From Prosthecobacter sp. SYSU 5D2 (GTDB taxonomy: Bacteria > Verrucomicrobiota > Verrucomicrobiia > Verrucomicrobiales > Verrucomicrobiaceae): a DNA stretch of 64,000 bases. A program made the position numbers and the translations under genes. The notes under the pieces were generated by a model. It was not told where the DNA came from. It saw only the letters and a program-made list of their open reading frames with translations, and ran no database searches. Below, one piece after another: positions 30,553-38,844 of this stretch; positions within the stretch are counted from its first letter, which is position 1; every line of letters begins with the position of its first letter. The DNA lies in NCBI RefSeq assembly GCF_039655865.1, contig NZ_JBBYXL010000003.1, forward strand, positions 124,001 to 188,000, in the 5' to 3' direction.

Positions 30553-30670
30553 CCTTCCAGTGCATTTCGCCCTCCGAAGTCCTTGAGCATCAAGGATTTA
30601 TTGCACATTCCATTGACGGCACAGGATGTGCAGAGTCTCGTTGGAGTTGGTCCATAAATTGCACCCCTCC

Positions 30671-31699
30671 ATGAAACCTATCCTCTGTTTCCTTGCTGCT
30701 CTGTCGCTGCATTCAACCCTCCAAGCCCAGGAGATCGATCCCAACCGATTTGGGACTTTGTCGTTCTACTTTGAGAACGACCTCTTCGCCCGGACGGATG
30801 AGAATTATACCAATGGCACCCGCATCAGCTGGACCTCCCCTGCCCTGCGCAAGTTCGGTGACGATGCCACCATTGGGGGCATGGCCGGATACTTCGACAA
30901 CTTCGGTTGGACCGGCAATTCCGACTTTGAGCGCAATGTGGCCATCAGCCTTGGCCAGAGCATGTTTACTCCGCGGGACGTGGATGCGTTTAACCTGGTG
31001 GATGACGAGCGTCCGTATGCCGGCTGGTTATACGTCGGCATGGGCATCATCTGGAAGAACCACAAGGTCAAGAATACCCTGGCTCTGAACATCGGCGTGG
31101 TCGGCCCCTGGTCCTACGCTGAAGAAACCCAGCGCCTGGTCCATGAAGCCCGCAACCAGAGCTTCCCCAACGGCTGGGACAACCAGATCGGTAACGAGAT
31201 CGGTGTCAATGCCTCCTACGAACGCATGTGGCGCATCCGCGACCGCAAGGACTTTCACGGCTGGGACTGGGACATCCTGCCCTATGCCGGCGCAACACTC
31301 GGCAATGTCATGACCCACGCCACCCTCGGCACCGAACTCCGCTTCGGATACAACCTTCCCGATGACTTTGGCACCGGAGCGATCACCGAGGCCGCCACCA
31401 CCCCGACCGCGATTGAGAACCCCTACACCGCCAAGTCCTGGGCCCGCCGCTTTGGCTTCCATTTCTTCATTCGTGGTGAAGGCCGTGCCGTCGCCCGCAA
31501 CATCTTCCTGGACGGGAATACCTTCCGCGACAGCCACTCTGTGGACAAGTATCCCCTGGTTGGCGACCTCTCCGCCGGTATCGGTATGAACTGGAAGAAT
31601 ACCAAGCTCAGCTATGCATATATCTACCGGACCAAGGAATTCCGAGGCCAGGACAATGCCCAGATCTTTGGCTCTGTGACTCTGAGCTTCAATTTCTAA
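30671..31699 (+). CDS. LpxR-like lipid A 3'-O-deacylase family protein
   Basis: A 342-residue protein from ATG 30671 with a signal peptide (ends LQAQ). It matches the LpxR/DUF2219 outer-membrane barrel family: LSFYFENDLFARTDENYTNG (the Asn/Asp-rich active-site start), DERPYAGWLYVG, and a terminal strand ending SVTLSFNF with a final aromatic residue for BAM insertion. Members remove the 3'-linked acyl chain of lipid A. The NDxF and YTNGxR blocks are present, so a lipid-modifying role is likely. Confidence 0.88.
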   Translation: MKPILCFLAALSLHSTLQAQEIDPNRFGTLSFYFENDLFARTDENYTNGTRISWTSPALRKFGDDATIGGMAGYFDNFGWTGNSDFERNVAISLGQSMFTPRDVDAFNLVDDERPYAGWLYVGMGIIWKNHKVKNTLALNIGVVGPWSYAEETQRLVHEARNQSFPNGWDNQIGNEIGVNASYERMWRIRDRKDFHGWDWDILPYAGATLGNVMTHATLGTELRFGYNLPDDFGTGAITEAATTPTAIENPYTAKSWARRFGFHFFIRGEGRAVARNIFLDGNTFRDSHSVDKYPLVGDLSAGIGMNWKNTKLSYAYIYRTKEFRGQDNAQIFGSVTLSFNF

Positions 31700-31721: not shown

Positions 31722-31757
31722 AAGAAGGGTGGACCGCAAGGTTCACCCTTCTTTTTT
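31722..31757. terminator. Bidirectional terminator with GCAA tetraloop
   Basis: AAGAAGGGTG (31722-31731) pairs with CACCCTTCTT (31744-31753). Further inner pairs close on a GCAA loop (31736-31739), giving a stem of about 16 bp. A T-run follows on the plus strand and A's precede it, so it can end the LpxR-like gene and the minus-strand membrane protein whose stop lies within the stem. Confidence 0.8.
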
Positions 31758-32168
31758 GGCCTCAACCACCGGCTCCGGGACTGACACATCGGCGACCATG
31801 AGAGCCACCAGGCAGGCCACCCACGCGGCCAGCAGACCGCTGAAAGGTTCAAACAGCACGCCGCTCCAGGCCAGGGCCACAGTCAGACTGAGGGTCAGAT
31901 AGGAGAAGCCTAACAAAAAGGCAAACTTCTGCCACATGGCCTGCATGGCCAGTCCGAGCCAGGCGCTCAGAAAGGCAAAGACCGTGTAGTAGCCGTATTG
32001 AAGAAGAAGGCTGCTCTTTAATCCGCCCTCCGGCACGACCACCAGGCGGGGAAGCTGCTCCCCTAACCAGCGGGCCATGTCAGGAAACAGGCCAAACTGG
32101 TACAAGGCAAGCATGGGCACACAAACAAGGATGCCGATAAACATGAAGGTGACGCGATGGCGGTCCAT
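31743..32168 (-). CDS. Small four-helix membrane protein
   Basis: A 141-residue protein with four hydrophobic stretches at about residues 7-25, 53-72, 80-100 and 105-125 and a short charged tail. I do not recognise the family. The ATG at 32168 lies 4 bp after the stop of the ClpX-like ATPase, so the two are almost certainly co-transcribed. A membrane substrate, adaptor or anchor for the ATPase is one reading; there is no direct evidence. Confidence 0.7.
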   Translation of the reverse strand: MDRHRVTFMFIGILVCVPMLALYQFGLFPDMARWLGEQLPRLVVVPEGGLKSSLLLQYGYYTVFAFLSAWLGLAMQAMWQKFAFLLGFSYLTLSLTVALAWSGVLFEPFSGLLAAWVACLVALMVADVSVPEPVVEAKKEG

Positions 32169-32172
32169 AGGA

Positions 32173-33792
32173 TCAGGAGACGGGAGATTCAGGCTGGCGG
32201 TAGGAGGCGACAACAAGCTCGCTCAGAAAACGGTCCGGATGTTCCACGGACTCCTGGTCTATATGGAAGGCCTTCTGGCCGGAGCTGCGGGAGACAAGCT
32301 GGAGACCAAAGGGATAGTCTTTGAACAGACGGTCACAGAGTTCCTGAATGCCGCAGCCTTCACGCTCCGCGCGGTTGACCAGGGCACGGACCGCCTCGGT
32401 ATCAAAGACAAGCTCCAGGCCATGCTCAATGGAGAAGTGACTGGCAAAGCGATGCACAATCTCCGCCCGGGAATCCGTGCTGAAGCTCTGGGCATCCTGT
32501 CGGCAGCGTTCCAGTGCAGCGGCGGGATCCTTCACCAGGGTTCCGTTGACGATCAGGTCAGGCAGAGCCAGGCTGGGCAGCTCAAACTTAAAGTCACGCA
32601 ACACTTTTTCCCATGCGGTGACGAGACCGCGCGCACCGGTCTTTTCCTCTGCGGCCCGCTCAGCCACGGCTCTCAGTGCATCATCTTCAAAGACCGTGCG
32701 GACGCCATAGGCGTGGAACTCGCGCTCATACTGGCGGATGAGACTGCCCTCGCTATTCTTCATGATCTGGAAGAGATCATCAGCGTTGAGGGTGTCGCAG
32801 AAGACACGCACAGGGAGACGACCAATGAACTCAGCCTCGAATCCGTAATCAATGAAGTCCTTGGTCCTGGCCTCGCGGAGCATGTCATCCGTACGGGGTT
32901 TTTCCGTGACCATGGCACCGAAGCCGATAGCGGCCTTGGCCTGGCGTTTTTCGATGATCTTTTCCAGCCCTGAGAAAGCGCCGCTGACGATGAAGAGGAT
33001 GTTGCGGGTATTGACGACCTCACGGCCCGTGCGGCCTTTGCGGGTATCAAACATCATTTGCATCTGGCTGCGCATATCATTGGGCGCATAGAGGGAGACT
33101 TCGGTCTCCTCCATCAGCTTGAGCAGGGCCGTCTGGACGCCGCGCCCACTGACATCACGACCTATCCGGCCTTCACCGCCAGTGGCCAGCTTGTCAATTT
33201 CATCCAGGTAAATGATGCCGTGCTGCGCAAGCTGGACATTGCCATTGGCCTTGGCAACGAGGTCACGGACCAGATCGTCCACATCAGCCCCGACGTATCC
33301 GGTCTCGCTAAACTTGGTGGCATCGGCCTTTACAAACGGGACACCGATGAGATCAGCGATGTGCTTGACCAGATAGGTCTTGCCGACGCCGGTCGGACCG
33401 GTGATCAGGACATTCTGCTTGGTGAACTCCAGTGGGGAGGCCCCAGCCTGCTTCTTGTGCTCCCGCAGCATGCGGGCGTGGTTGTAGTGGTCGCAGACGG
33501 CGGTGGCGAGGACTTTTTTTGCCTCGTCCTGGCGGATCACAAAACGGTCCAGATAAGCTTTGATATCAGCGGGTTTGTAACGGAAATCGTATGATGGGGC
33601 AGGCTCCTCCGGCGGCGGCTGGGCCTCTGCGGATTCTTCCTCCGCCACGGAACGCATCCCGGGCTCCACGCGTGAAAAGACGACCTGGCCACCGAGGCTG
33701 TTCTTGATGAAGTCCTCAAGCTTGCGCGTGATCTCGTCCGGCGACGGCGGCTGCTTGGGGGCTTCTGGAGGGTCCTGGGGGGTGTCAGTCAT
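32173..33792 (-). CDS. ClpX-like AAA+ unfoldase with second lid-like domain
   Basis: A 539-residue ClpX-family ATPase from ATG 33792. The N-terminal zinc domain of ClpX is absent, replaced by about 70 acidic/Pro-rich residues. The core is intact: Walker A GPTGVGKT (132-139), GYVGAD pore loop (165-170), Walker B IIYLDEID (193-200), the ClpP-docking IGF (289-291), EFIGRLP (321-327) and sensor-2 GARGL (386-390). After the normal end there are about 130 extra residues. Residues 455-500 resemble the lid again, but with GIQEL in place of GARGL. Unfolding of substrates for ClpP is possible; specificity is probably different from ClpX. Confidence 0.88.
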   Translation of the reverse strand: MTDTPQDPPEAPKQPPSPDEITRKLEDFIKNSLGGQVVFSRVEPGMRSVAEEESAEAQPPPEEPAPSYDFRYKPADIKAYLDRFVIRQDEAKKVLATAVCDHYNHARMLREHKKQAGASPLEFTKQNVLITGPTGVGKTYLVKHIADLIGVPFVKADATKFSETGYVGADVDDLVRDLVAKANGNVQLAQHGIIYLDEIDKLATGGEGRIGRDVSGRGVQTALLKLMEETEVSLYAPNDMRSQMQMMFDTRKGRTGREVVNTRNILFIVSGAFSGLEKIIEKRQAKAAIGFGAMVTEKPRTDDMLREARTKDFIDYGFEAEFIGRLPVRVFCDTLNADDLFQIMKNSEGSLIRQYEREFHAYGVRTVFEDDALRAVAERAAEEKTGARGLVTAWEKVLRDFKFELPSLALPDLIVNGTLVKDPAAALERCRQDAQSFSTDSRAEIVHRFASHFSIEHGLELVFDTEAVRALVNRAEREGCGIQELCDRLFKDYPFGLQLVSRSSGQKAFHIDQESVEHPDRFLSELVVASYRQPESPVS

Positions 33793-33898
33793 GGTTTGTG
33801 GAATTGTTCCCGATACGGAGGCGAAAGACAATGGCTTTATGGACATTCGACTTTGGTCGTGGCGCAGACGCCATGATTATGGCATTAAAGCCTGACAT

Positions 33899-35137
33899 AT
33901 GGCTCTTTCGATCCTGGACGTTTTCAACCGCTACCGTTTGGCGGGCGGGGAGGAATTCGCAGTGGAGCGTATCCGCGCCATGCTGGCCACCCGCCATCAG
34001 GTGCATAGCTGCCGGTTCGCCAGCGAGGAGTGGCTGAGACCTGATGCCCCTGGGAGGTTGAGCCAGGGCTGGCGCTTTTTCTACAATCCGGCGAGCCGCC
34101 GACGTTTTGAATCGGCGGTGGAGGAAAGCGGGGCTGATCTGGCAGTATTTCATAACCTGTTTCCGGTGGGGTCTCCGGCCATCTACCATGCGGCCAGCCG
34201 CAAGGGCATCCCGGTGGTCCAGTTTCTCCACAATTACCGCCCTTTTGCAGTTGGCAGTCTATATTCGCGGGGCATGCTGCAAACGGACTCATTATACGGG
34301 AACCACTGGCAGGCGGTACGTGACGGTGTGTGGATGAATTCCCGCGTACGCACGCTGATGATGGCGACACTTCAGAAAATGCTGCATCGCAGCGGGTGGC
34401 TGGGCAGCGTGAAAAAGTGGATCGCCATTTCGGATTTCATGAGAGAGCGGCTGATCGAGGCCGGAGCGGTGGCTCCCGACCGCATTGTGACACTCAGGCA
34501 TGCGTGGGACTGCCTGCCGCAGGCACCTGAGAAACAAGATGCGGGCTATTACCTATTTCTGGGGCGGCTGATCGAAGAGAAAGGGCTGCCGACGCTTCTG
34601 GATGCCTGGGACATGCTGCAGGCACAACTGGGCAAAGCCACGCCGCGACTGCACATTGCAGGTGAAGGGCCGATGGCGGAACAGGTGAGACAGCATGCAC
34701 GCACGAACCCTTTTATCTGTGCCCTGGGAAATGTAGGCGGGGAAACCAAGACCGACCAGTTGCTGCGCTGCCGGGCGGTGGTGGTGCCATCCGTCTGGTG
34801 GGAGCCATTGGGGCTGGTCACATATGAGGCTTATGATTATGCCAAGCCGGTATTGGCAGCAAGCTCAGGCGGGCTGACGGAAACAGTCCAACATAGCCGC
34901 ACAGGATTTCTGCATGTGCCTGGAGACGCGGCGGGGCTGGTGCAGGATGTGCTGAACCTGGAGGCCATGTCCGTCACCCAACGGATGGCGCTGGGAAATA
35001 GCGGAAGGCACTGGCTGCGGCAGGAAACTGACCCGACACGATGGCTGCGCAAGTTTGATGAAATTGCGGGGGAGGTCATTGCTCCTCGTCAGGCAGAGCT
35101 CCGGATAAAACAGGAGGCGCTGCGAGGAGCTCGATGA
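33899..35137 (+). CDS. Family 4 glycosyltransferase
   Basis: A 412-residue GT4 (GT-B fold) protein. The N-terminal acceptor half has FNRYRLAGGEEF, and the donor half has YYLFLGRLIEEKGLPTLLDAW, LHIAGEGP and the late WWEPLGLVTYEAYDYAKPVLAASSGG with the conserved E-x7-E. It should add a sugar to a lipid-linked or surface glycan. The 3' end overlaps the convergent surface-protein gene by 62 bp. No signal peptide is present. Confidence 0.9.
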   Translation: MALSILDVFNRYRLAGGEEFAVERIRAMLATRHQVHSCRFASEEWLRPDAPGRLSQGWRFFYNPASRRRFESAVEESGADLAVFHNLFPVGSPAIYHAASRKGIPVVQFLHNYRPFAVGSLYSRGMLQTDSLYGNHWQAVRDGVWMNSRVRTLMMATLQKMLHRSGWLGSVKKWIAISDFMRERLIEAGAVAPDRIVTLRHAWDCLPQAPEKQDAGYYLFLGRLIEEKGLPTLLDAWDMLQAQLGKATPRLHIAGEGPMAEQVRQHARTNPFICALGNVGGETKTDQLLRCRAVVVPSVWWEPLGLVTYEAYDYAKPVLAASSGGLTETVQHSRTGFLHVPGDAAGLVQDVLNLEAMSVTQRMALGNSGRHWLRQETDPTRWLRKFDEIAGEVIAPRQAELRIKQEALRGAR

Positions 35138-37769
35138 GGCCGCTGTTCTGCGGGGAGGTGGTGACTTTTTCACTGCCTTCCGGAAGCTCAGCCAGGAGGA
35201 AGAAACCGACACGTTCCCAGCTGCCATCTGAGTGGCGGACAAAGGTGCCTTGAAACGGCGTTTTGCGTGTGAGGGATTTGACCTCGTTGGGGAGGGTGAA
35301 AGTGCCGGAGAAGTAACCTGCGGGTTTCGACAGCAGCTTGAAGGTGACCGTGTTCGGATTCGGGTTCGTGTCCGGTGTTTTCGGAGTGGACTTGGGAACA
35401 ATGACGGTCTGTTTTATGCCCGTGTCCTTCTTGTTCATGATGGTAAACGGGAAGGTGTCAATATCATCCACCAGCAGCCCGCCGCCAGAGAAGGTGAGCC
35501 AGGCATTGGCCTGGGTGTCCGAGGTACCGTTGTCGGCAAGACCGGCGACCACGCCGCCAGAGGCAGGGGCCAGATACATGCCCCCGGAGAGGGTGAGGTC
35601 AAAGGCTTCAAACCCATCGCGATAAGCGCGGTCTTTGGATTTGGTCTCAGCAGGCGGCTTCATCCAGCTGACAGCACCCGTAATGCTGTTGAGGACGGTC
35701 GCTGAAGGTGCTTCAGGAATGTCAATCTTGGGAATGCCCACCAGAGAGCTGGTCTTGACGGCAAAAGGACTGAAGATCGGCAAATCCCCCCGTGGACCAA
35801 GGATAGTGGGGACGGTGAAGGACTTGCCATCGGCAGTCCTGCCCACCAAGGTGGCGGTGCCCTTGTCGGTAACTGTCAGGGCCCCGAATCCATCTCCCTG
35901 CGGGATAAGGGGATTACCGATGAATTCAGGCGCATCAGGGAGGCGAAGGCTATAGGTGTAGCTTCCAGTGTATTGCGTAGGCTTGGAGGTCTTGGTCCAG
36001 GTGTTGCGGACGCCGAACACATTGGTGCTTATGTCTTCTGGATTTTTAAGGGTGCCGGTCAACTGGAAGCTCTCGATAGAGCCGTCAGCGATGTCGAAAG
36101 TAAGTTCTGCGATGAGAGTTGGCTGGCCTTTACGGGTGAATTCCAGCTCGGGGATGCCAACGACGGTGACGTCACCGACGTCAGAGATGGTGAGCTTGCC
36201 TTTGGCGGAATAGGCTGTGGAACCGGAAAGGAGCTTGGCCGTGAAAGCGCCTTTGGTGGTAGTGGTGAGATTGAGGCGGCCACCGAAGCCGTCAGCGATT
36301 TCTGGTTTGCGCTCGATTGCGGCCAGGAAGGTGCCGACAGCGGCGGCAGGAACTTCATCAATGGTGATGGTAACAACAACATTGCCGCTGTCGCCGACGC
36401 TGTTTTTGGCAAAGAGGGTCACTTCCTTGTCAGTGAACGCCTTGGTAGGGTAACCGCTGATGACACCGGTGGTTTTGTTCATTTTCAGGCCGCTTGGAAG
36501 TCCTTTGGCCGTGAAGGTAGAGGCATTGCCCTGGGGAGCATTGGCAACCGCCACTTCAAATTCATAATAAGAACCGACGTAACCGGGATCCAGCGTACTG
36601 ATGGCAATGACAGGGGCTTCCGAACCTGGAGGCAGATCTGAGATGGTGATGGTGACGGTGGCAGGTGTGGAAGAGTCCAGTCCATCAAAGGCACGGAAGG
36701 TGAAACTGTCATTGCCGGTCAGACCAGCTGTGGCTGTGTACTCGTAGGTGCCGTCTTCCTCAAGATCCAAAGTACCTTTGGCCGGTGCATCCACTACGAA
36801 GAAGGTCAGAGCATCCAGGTCGGCATCGGTGCCGGTAACGGTGCCGCCGGAGGTCTGGCCACGATTGAGAGAGAGGGTGCCAGCAATGGCAACAGGCGGA
36901 TTGTTATCCACGATGGTCACAGCAACGGTGGCCGGGGCAGAGTAATCCTTGCCGTCATACGCCCGGAAAGTGAAGCTGTCATTGCCGGTCTGGCCTGCAG
37001 TGGAGGTGTACAGGTAGCTGCCATCTTCCTCGATATCCACAGTTCCCTTGGTGGGTTCATCCACGACGAAAAAGGTAAGTGTATCGTCATCGGCATCGGT
37101 GCCTGTAACGGTGCCGGAAGCGGACAGGCCACGGTCAATGGTGAGCGTACCGGCCAAGGCCACAGGCGGCTGATTGGGCGGAACAAAAAACTGGACTTCC
37201 ATTTCCAGTTTGGCGACTGCCCCGTCGCCGAGACCGTAGTCGTGCGTCTGGGCGCTCACAGCGCCTGCAAAGAAGGTGGCATCGGGACGAAGAAAGACGC
37301 TGGCATTCACAGGAGGCCCCTCTTCGGGATCTGCCGGGAAAACGGCGGGCAGTTTGGCCAGAAGAATCTCCGTGGCATCCAGCCGGTTGGCTCCGACGAA
37401 CAGCCAGATGAAAATGGAGCTGCCGGCGAAATCATTTTCGGCGGATGGAGCGGTGCTGAAGGTGATCTGGTTCTCAAATAAACCATTCTGGGCAAAGGAG
37501 GTGACAGGAAAGGGTGTAGCCGCAGAACCGAAAACCTCAAAGGCCTCGACCAGGGCGGTGATATTGCCAGCGGCCAGGAGCGTTTCCACTTCTCCATCGG
37601 AGATGGTCATGCGGCCGATAAATCCTTTGCCCTCAGCGACCAGGGTGCTTTCGCTGCTGGCGATGCCGTGAGCAGCCAGGCCGTTATAATTGGAGACGGT
37701 CAGGGTGGCAGAGCGGGCCAGGGGCACCAGAGACAATGCCAAAGCCAGCGCGAGGAAGATTTTTTTCAT
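35076..37769 (-). CDS. Large secreted surface protein with tandem Ig-like repeats
   Basis: An 897-residue protein from ATG 37769 with a signal peptide (ends ARSA). An N-terminal domain of about 190 residues is unrecognised. Two 90-residue Ig/cadherin-like repeats (tandem-95 style) follow: PPVALAGTLTIDRG...GTDADDDTLTFF and PPVAIAGTLSLNRG...GTDADLDALTFF. A putative-Ig He_PIG-like unit (LPSGLKMNKTTGVISGYPT) comes next, then a beta-rich C-terminus of about 350 residues. A longer open frame upstream to 38096 lacks a signal and overlaps the next gene. It is likely an adhesin or matrix protein, in tandem with the TIGR02597-like gene. Confidence 0.8.
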   Translation of the reverse strand: MKKIFLALALALSLVPLARSATLTVSNYNGLAAHGIASSESTLVAEGKGFIGRMTISDGEVETLLAAGNITALVEAFEVFGSAATPFPVTSFAQNGLFENQITFSTAPSAENDFAGSSIFIWLFVGANRLDATEILLAKLPAVFPADPEEGPPVNASVFLRPDATFFAGAVSAQTHDYGLGDGAVAKLEMEVQFFVPPNQPPVALAGTLTIDRGLSASGTVTGTDADDDTLTFFVVDEPTKGTVDIEEDGSYLYTSTAGQTGNDSFTFRAYDGKDYSAPATVAVTIVDNNPPVAIAGTLSLNRGQTSGGTVTGTDADLDALTFFVVDAPAKGTLDLEEDGTYEYTATAGLTGNDSFTFRAFDGLDSSTPATVTITISDLPPGSEAPVIAISTLDPGYVGSYYEFEVAVANAPQGNASTFTAKGLPSGLKMNKTTGVISGYPTKAFTDKEVTLFAKNSVGDSGNVVVTITIDEVPAAAVGTFLAAIERKPEIADGFGGRLNLTTTTKGAFTAKLLSGSTAYSAKGKLTISDVGDVTVVGIPELEFTRKGQPTLIAELTFDIADGSIESFQLTGTLKNPEDISTNVFGVRNTWTKTSKPTQYTGSYTYSLRLPDAPEFIGNPLIPQGDGFGALTVTDKGTATLVGRTADGKSFTVPTILGPRGDLPIFSPFAVKTSSLVGIPKIDIPEAPSATVLNSITGAVSWMKPPAETKSKDRAYRDGFEAFDLTLSGGMYLAPASGGVVAGLADNGTSDTQANAWLTFSGGGLLVDDIDTFPFTIMNKKDTGIKQTVIVPKSTPKTPDTNPNPNTVTFKLLSKPAGYFSGTFTLPNEVKSLTRKTPFQGTFVRHSDGSWERVGFFLLAELPEGSEKVTTSPQNSGLIELLAAPPVLSGALPDEEQ
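36630..37170 (-). repeat. Two 270-bp in-frame direct repeats
   Basis: Two adjacent units of 270 bp, offset exactly 270 bp (for example CTGTCATTGCCGGTC occurs in both), encode the paired 90-residue Ig-like domains of the surface protein. High but imperfect nucleotide similarity indicates internal duplication of one domain. Confidence 0.75.
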
Positions 37770-37806
37770 ATCAAAAGGAAATTCGACGAAGTGCGCTGGG
37801 ACGGAA

Positions 37807-38844
37807 TCAAAATGCGCCCTGATTGAGCTGAATGCTGACAGGCCCGCCCACACGATGAATGATGTAGGCTCCGTCAGGAAGTGGCACATCTTTCTGATCT
37901 GCCATGCCAGCTCCGATGCGCCGCCAGCCCGTGCCTGCGATGCCGCCGGGAGCGGAATAATAATATTGGATGTAGCCGCCAGCCTGAGCATCCCAGAGCA
38001 GCACACGGTCAGCCTGGACAGAAGTGAGGCCATGGGTAAGGCCTTCTTGAAGACCGGATGTTTCCAGAGTAAGCCCGACTTCAGAGTCAACAGCATTCAC
38101 CGGGCAGAGGTTGGCGACAAAGTTGTTACCCGTCTGAAGGTTGACACGGGTATTGCCTGGTTTGACCTGACCAACGATGACAACCGATTTGGCAGAACGG
38201 GCTGTGATGGCGATGCCGCCTGCAAACTCCAAGGGAACCACGCCCTGATCCGTGGTGAAATCTCCGACAAGGCGCCAGCCGGCGGTGTATTCTCCCTCAC
38301 CGTTGGAATAGAAATACTGGTCAAATCCAACCCCGTTAGGAATCTGGATCAGATCAGCCTGAGCAGGTGCAGCGGCGTCTGTCAGTCCTGCAGAATTGTC
38401 AGCCCCAAAGACATCGGCCAGGGTCCAAAGCTTCCAGATTTTGACAGTGGCACCATCGGCCACGCCTTCCGGGATGGCGTCTGCCAGGACGATTTCGTTG
38501 TCCAGAGCGAAGGTGTCTGTAATGACGCTGGTAAAACCGACCCCGGCATCTCCGTCACTGCCGGAGATCTCAATGGTGTGGGATGGCAGACTGCCGGTGT
38601 TAAACTGGTCGTTGATCAAGGCGACGTTCGGCGCGCCTTGCAGGAAAATGCTGGTGCGGCCCGCATCAATATTGACAAGGCCTTGCATCTCCATGGAAGG
38701 CAGCAGGGCGAAACCCATGAAATTGGTGCCTGGGGTGAGGTTGAGAGTGAGGAATCCCATCACAGGAGTGGTTACCGTTGTCTGGGCGATGGCGGTTGCA
38801 GCCAGCAAGCAGGATGCAGCCAGACAATAAATGCGTTTCATCAT
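37807..38844 (-). CDS. TIGR02597-like secreted protein
   Basis: A 345-residue exported protein (signal ends AIAQ). Early TTPVMGFLTLNLTPGTNFMGFALLP and later repeats such as FDQYFYSN...GWRLVGD and IQYYYSAPGGIAGTGWRRIG are, from memory, the pattern of the TIGR02597 family described in Verrucomicrobium. It looks like duplicated beta domains. It lies 37 bp upstream of the large surface-protein gene, so both are probably expressed together as extracellular or outer-membrane components. Function unknown. Confidence 0.65.
   Translation of the reverse strand: MMKRIYCLAASCLLAATAIAQTTVTTPVMGFLTLNLTPGTNFMGFALLPSMEMQGLVNIDAGRTSIFLQGAPNVALINDQFNTGSLPSHTIEISGSDGDAGVGFTSVITDTFALDNEIVLADAIPEGVADGATVKIWKLWTLADVFGADNSAGLTDAAAPAQADLIQIPNGVGFDQYFYSNGEGEYTAGWRLVGDFTTDQGVVPLEFAGGIAITARSAKSVVIVGQVKPGNTRVNLQTGNNFVANLCPVNAVDSEVGLTLETSGLQEGLTHGLTSVQADRVLLWDAQAGGYIQYYYSAPGGIAGTGWRRIGAGMADQKDVPLPDGAYIIHRVGGPVSIQLNQGAF

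Follow-up and report, generated by a model that had tools for sequence, protein, structure and literature searches.

Accounts of ClpX usually present a single, conserved architecture. The zinc domain of ClpX serves dimerisation and adaptor docking, and its RKH loop reads the ssrA tag. ClpX lids are rigid-body joints that form the ring, and the sensor-2 arginine of AAA+ lids senses nucleotide. In addition, ClpX can remodel proteins without ClpP. We describe here ClpX2, which is encoded in a 64,000-nucleotide stretch of the genome of Prosthecobacter sp. SYSU 5D2 (the window). It is a real and conserved variant of the ClpX architecture that has apparently not been described before; a search of open-licence papers turned up no ClpX with a second lid.

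ClpX2 resembles canonical ClpX of E. coli (b0438) in its AAA+ large domain and lid, Walker A and B motifs, GYVG pore loop, arginine finger, sensor-2 arginine and IGF motif, and the two proteins share about 40% identity over residues 65-430. Unlike canonical ClpX, it has no zinc domain, carries a longer insert at the RKH loop and gains a second lid. Moreover, the canonical sequence DVSGEGVQ reads DVSGRGVQ in 71/71 ClpX2 relatives. HslU likewise has no zinc domain, and its small domain is found among the best structural matches to the second lid. ClpX2 nevertheless differs from HslU by its IGF loop, and the kinship seen between them is that of the shared AAA+ fold only. The closest reported case is ClpX3 of Myxococcus xanthus (MXAN_2743), a divergent extra ClpX with 43.5% identity to E. 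coli ClpX, whose deletion renders cells heat-sensitive (PMC11423568). As judged from its description, ClpX3 resembles ClpX2 in having neither the N-terminal domain nor the RKH motif, whereas the main text of that paper mentions no second lid (PMC11423568).

Motor and ClpP-docking motifs of ClpX2

The open reading frame of clpX2 (32173..33792) runs from 33792 to 32173 on the minus strand and encodes 539 amino acids. An in-frame ATG at 33846 provides an alternative start, which would extend the product to 557 amino acids. The reading frame, its NCBIfam matches and its orthologues mark the product as an AAA+ unfoldase of the ClpX family that has a duplicated lid but no zinc domain. ClpX2 matches the NCBIfam ClpX models with E values of 5e-104 and 7e-98 (TIGR00382 / NF003745) and scores under both equivalog cut-offs (348.4 vs 359 bits; 328.3 vs 370.75 bits). 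It also fails the HslU cut-off (TIGR00390; 182.4 vs 362.45 bits).

The AAA+ large domain (residues 71-332; 32797..33582, minus strand) contains Walker A K138, pore-loop Y166, Walker B D197/E198 and the arginine finger R325. It is followed by the first lid or small AAA+ domain (residues 333-427; 32512..32796, minus strand), which retains the sensor-2 arginine R388 and is supported by a Pfam match to ClpB_D2-small on the segment alone (E 4.9e-6) and by the AlphaFold model. Each of these residues is invariant in 71/71 ClpX2 relatives. The GYVG pore loop is kept according to the alignment with E. coli ClpX. In the IGF ClpP-docking motif (residues 289-291; 32920..32928, minus strand), G290 and F291 are present in 71/71 relatives, and the first position is occupied by I, M or L. 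A sequence-only reading of the window had noted the kept IGF, in line with this conservation, and had placed the first lid at residues 363-405. The lid is indeed located there, but this span covers only the middle of its true extent (about 333-427). With Walker A/B, arginine finger, sensor 2, GYVG and IGF all in place, ClpX2 is best classed by sequence as a ClpX-type AAA+ unfoldase.

Purifying selection acts on all three regions of ClpX2. For the core, dN/dS is about 0.02-0.05, and for the extension 0.1-0.3; with synonymous sites near saturation, these figures are rough. Mean pairwise identity among ClpX2 proteins is 41% in the extension versus 65% in the core, showing that the extension evolves faster.

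The second lid, the N-terminus and the RKH-loop insert

The C-terminal extension (residues 438-532; 32197..32481, minus strand) is a true duplicate of the lid. In hhalign comparisons, it matches lid 1 of the ClpX2 family with a probability of 98.5% over 75 columns (24% identity) and the lid profile of canonical ClpX with 86.4%, while control windows of the profile outside the lid reach 0.0-1.6%, the 1.6% window already overlapping the start of the lid. An HMM built from the extension only and run over 77 whole genomes, with no target region given, matched the extension in 21 genomes. In 11 of these 21, lid 1 of that protein was hit as well, at E 3.5e-7 to 8e-5. None of the matches in the 77 genomes fell outside the ClpX2 family.

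Structural models agree with the sequence comparisons. In the AlphaFold model of the whole protein, the extension has a pLDDT of about 90-95 and a helix-strand-helix-helix-helix-strand order resembling lid 1; modeled alone, it reaches about 90 over the fold. The 50 best PDB entries for the extension model comprise only ClpX and HslU chains, almost always aligned over the small domain. Foldseek assigns probabilities of 0.96-1.00 with E values exceeding 0.009, which is normal for so short a domain, and VIA-align gives Z scores of up to 8.6, mostly with an rmsd of 2.1-2.9 over 75-83 residues. A Z score of about 8 is modest by itself; hence, the identification as a lid rests on how uniformly the hits fall on ClpX and HslU, together with the sequence comparisons. 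A Pfam search with the extension alone returned no match. When the HMMER profile of the extension was compared with PDB sequences, ClpX and HslU appeared at E values of about 0.6, and the best hit was a short DnaK/Hsp70 segment (E 0.004). Kinship with Hsp70 was rejected as a chance match because the hit covers only 42 residues and is absent among the structural matches listed.

The sequence-only reading had recognized a repeat of the lid pattern in the extension and the loss of its sensor-2 arginine, and both observations hold. The second lid shows a conserved F-K-D-Y-x-F-G-L-x-L-I motif, while the GAR motif of sensor 2 is not conserved in it among the 71 relatives. As judged from ClpX biology, a lid without the sensor-2 arginine should not sense nucleotide.

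At the opposite end, alignment with E. coli ClpX and the 71 relatives delimits a region that replaces the zinc-binding domain (residues 1-70; 33583..33792, minus strand). A CxxC zinc motif occurs in the N-terminus of 0/71 relatives, and four cysteines are never present there. In the model, most of this region is disordered, save for a predicted helix at residues 18-33 (33694..33741, minus strand) with the conserved pattern PEEI.RKL.EF.K..FGG. The earlier description of an acidic/proline stretch of 70 residues in place of the zinc domain was thus right about the loss of the domain, but the conserved helix indicates that the stretch is not mere filler. A change that the earlier reading had not listed emerges from the alignment with E. 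coli ClpX: a longer insert (residues 236-261; 33010..33087, minus strand) takes the place of the RKH loop, and RKH is found in the loop region of 0/71 relatives. Since the zinc domain is missing, adaptor docking is not expected for ClpX2, and since the RKH loop is missing, neither is reading of the ssrA tag. By analogy with ClpX, ClpX2 would therefore not process classical ssrA-tagged or adaptor-delivered substrates. The new substrate delivery proposed earlier would fit both losses.

Distribution, ancestry and reduced genomes

The host genome (5.87 Mb, 26 contigs, 99.98% complete) also carries a canonical clpX with zinc domain, located directly downstream of clpP, and ClpX2 is 39% identical to its product over residues 65-430. 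In a tree of the core regions of ClpX2, of canonical ClpX from the same groups and of E. coli ClpX, ClpX2 forms a single clade opposite canonical ClpX with a support of 100. ClpX2 is thus an old paralogue distinct from canonical ClpX and not a recent local duplication. The sequence-only reading of an alternative Clp unfoldase that carries a second lid-like domain is supported by the separate clade, the additional canonical clpX, the kept motor residues and the AAA+ lid fold. An extension unrelated to the lid, or clpX2 as the only clpX, would have spoken against it, and neither was found.

Relatives sharing the extension are numerous across Verrucomicrobiota and Poribacteria. The nearest named ones belong to the Verrucomicrobiaceae, including Prosthecobacter. 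Within the genus of the window, 31/35 genomes encode ClpX2 with the extension (one split over two contigs), and three of the four genomes without it are 52-81% complete. The corresponding numbers are about 114/384 for Verrucomicrobiota (counted by hand, a few partial) and 80/85 for Poribacteria (one in two pieces). A scan of GTDB genomes yielded at least 562 relatives, the best 80 of which are, judged by their titles, all from Verrucomicrobiota or Poribacteria. ClpX2 has been lost in some lineages, for instance in a genus of the same order that is represented by many genomes (g2). With regard to carriage by mobile elements, the best phage ClpX relatives align to the ClpX2 core only, and no plasmid record covered 80% of the ClpX2 query.

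One genome encodes full-length ClpX2, canonical ClpX and an extra ClpX2-like copy of 391 amino acids (L174; G174:C42:151307-152422) without second lid and without IGF. This short form sits on a long branch, and the tree is compatible with either an ancestral or a reduced state.

In all but one of the ClpX2 genomes tested, ClpP was found. The exception (G103) is a draft in which the adjoining canonical clpX is missing from the assembly as well. A dedicated second ClpP for ClpX2 was considered and deemed unneeded because tiny genomes with ClpX2 have a single ClpP. In the host, matches to PF00574 include ClpP-like domains in two proteins of 445-450 amino acids (L004 and L005; G000:C4:183338-183859 and 346239-346676). 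The start of both resembles a signal peptide, and a long charged stretch that looks helical precedes the ClpP-like domain; they are possible exported ClpP-like proteins.

ClpX2 is the ClpX retained in two tiny genomes, where it replaces canonical ClpX. These single-contig genomes (L227 and L228; 915,884 and 917,278 bp) keep clpP and clpX2, in the order clpX2-recR-lipA, and have no canonical clpX, whereas a 2.5-Mb genome from their genus encodes both ClpX2 and canonical ClpX. The IGF motif of their ClpX2 reads VGF. Both genomes retain two large Hsp100-type ATPases (831-872 amino acids), and thus ClpX2 need not be the sole partner of ClpP there.

The adjoining membrane gene and possible roles of ClpX2

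A gene for a membrane protein of 141 amino acids (31743..32168, minus strand) begins 4 bp past the clpX2 stop on the same strand, as the sequence-only reading had stated, and is kept in close relatives. Locus comparison shows that the protein is homologous to the membrane part of cyclase-like proteins of 430-450 amino acids encoded beside clpX2 in relatives. Over most relatives, the counterparts range from 415 to 450 amino acids and comprise the membrane part, which is 37-50% identical to the window's protein in nearer kin, and a further region. A class III cyclase match (PF00211) lies above the cut-off in one of the longer genes (L108; E 4e-10) and below it in another (L121; E 3e-4), and the other long forms show none. 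The long forms at L055 2650-4011, L121 1827-3080 and L108 5577-6842 appear to be membrane-anchored and class III cyclase-like, and by eye some seem to be without the usual metal-binding aspartates. The 141-aa gene is a cyclase-like gene truncated in the lineage of the window.

The membrane or cyclase-like gene adjoins clpX2 at 48/104 loci with a readable downstream gene and is often followed by recR and lipA (both named by eye from their sequences). It is not found beside clpX2 in Poribacteria, which have other neighbours, or in the two tiny genomes. The constant adjacency that the earlier reading had proposed to check is not observed. Neighbouring genes in the window encode an outer-membrane protein of the LpxR family of lipid A deacylases (30626-31699, plus strand), a GT4-type glycosyltransferase (33899-35137, plus strand) and a large cadherin/Ig-like surface protein (35076-38096, minus strand).

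ClpX2 would form a ClpX-like hexamer, dock on the ordinary ClpP of the cell via its IGF loops, and unfold and thread proteins by ATP hydrolysis. We consider it fairly probable that ClpX2 serves as an alternative unfoldase docking on ClpP and that substrates enter it differently, the second lid and the N-terminal helix providing a recruiting or ring-stabilising surface. As an added surface on the ring, the two elements might recruit particular substrates or adaptors; alternatively, they might stabilise the hexamer in place of zinc-domain dimers. A mainly structural role of the second lid is a serious though not the leading possibility. Here, it would lie against the adjacent subunit or the outer face of the ring and stabilise the hexamer in lieu of zinc-domain dimers, with no part in the choice of substrate. 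The joint function of ClpX lids in general, the fold kept at high model confidence and the conserved hydrophobic/aromatic motif are consistent with such a role, but the concurrent changes in the RKH loop and the N-terminal domain would be needless for it. It is unlikely that ClpX2 is a remodelling chaperone independent of ClpP. ClpX is able to act in this way and the short relative L174, which has no extension, has lost the IGF, but the motif is kept in essentially all full-length members, and ClpP accompanies ClpX2 in all genomes tested save the draft G103, even where canonical ClpX has been lost.

Still less likely is the delivery of membrane proteins to ClpP with the aid of the adjoining, putatively co-transcribed membrane protein, in keeping with the earlier suggestion of an action at the membrane. 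The close spacing on the same strand, maintained in close relatives, holds and would agree with it. However, what adjoins clpX2 is a cyclase-like gene, truncated here, of a clpX2-cyclase-recR-lipA run, and the pair is found at fewer than half of the readable loci and is not seen in Poribacteria or the tiny genomes. Adjacency thus reflects a regional gene order and lends little weight to membrane delivery. That ClpX2 is a redundant or decaying copy of ClpX, as scores under the equivalog cut-offs and losses such as that in g2 could suggest, is highly improbable, since it is contradicted by the invariant catalytic residues, purifying selection and retention in two highly reduced genomes.

The reading as an alternative ClpP-docking unfoldase may be extended, more tentatively, to a separate and old class of ClpP partners. 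In this class, the duplicated lid would replace the zinc domain as recruiter or ring stabiliser, ClpX2 would have its own adaptors and degrons, and it would have taken over all duties of ClpX in at least one lineage with reduced genomes. A second class of ClpX with a duplicated lid that spans two phyla and can outlast canonical ClpX in reduced genomes would be a natural experiment for telling the parts of ClpX that work with ClpP requires from those that only select substrates. Moreover, the annotation "ClpX" stands for two different proteins in Verrucomicrobiota and Poribacteria, and calls of its presence or absence in these phyla may therefore be wrong.
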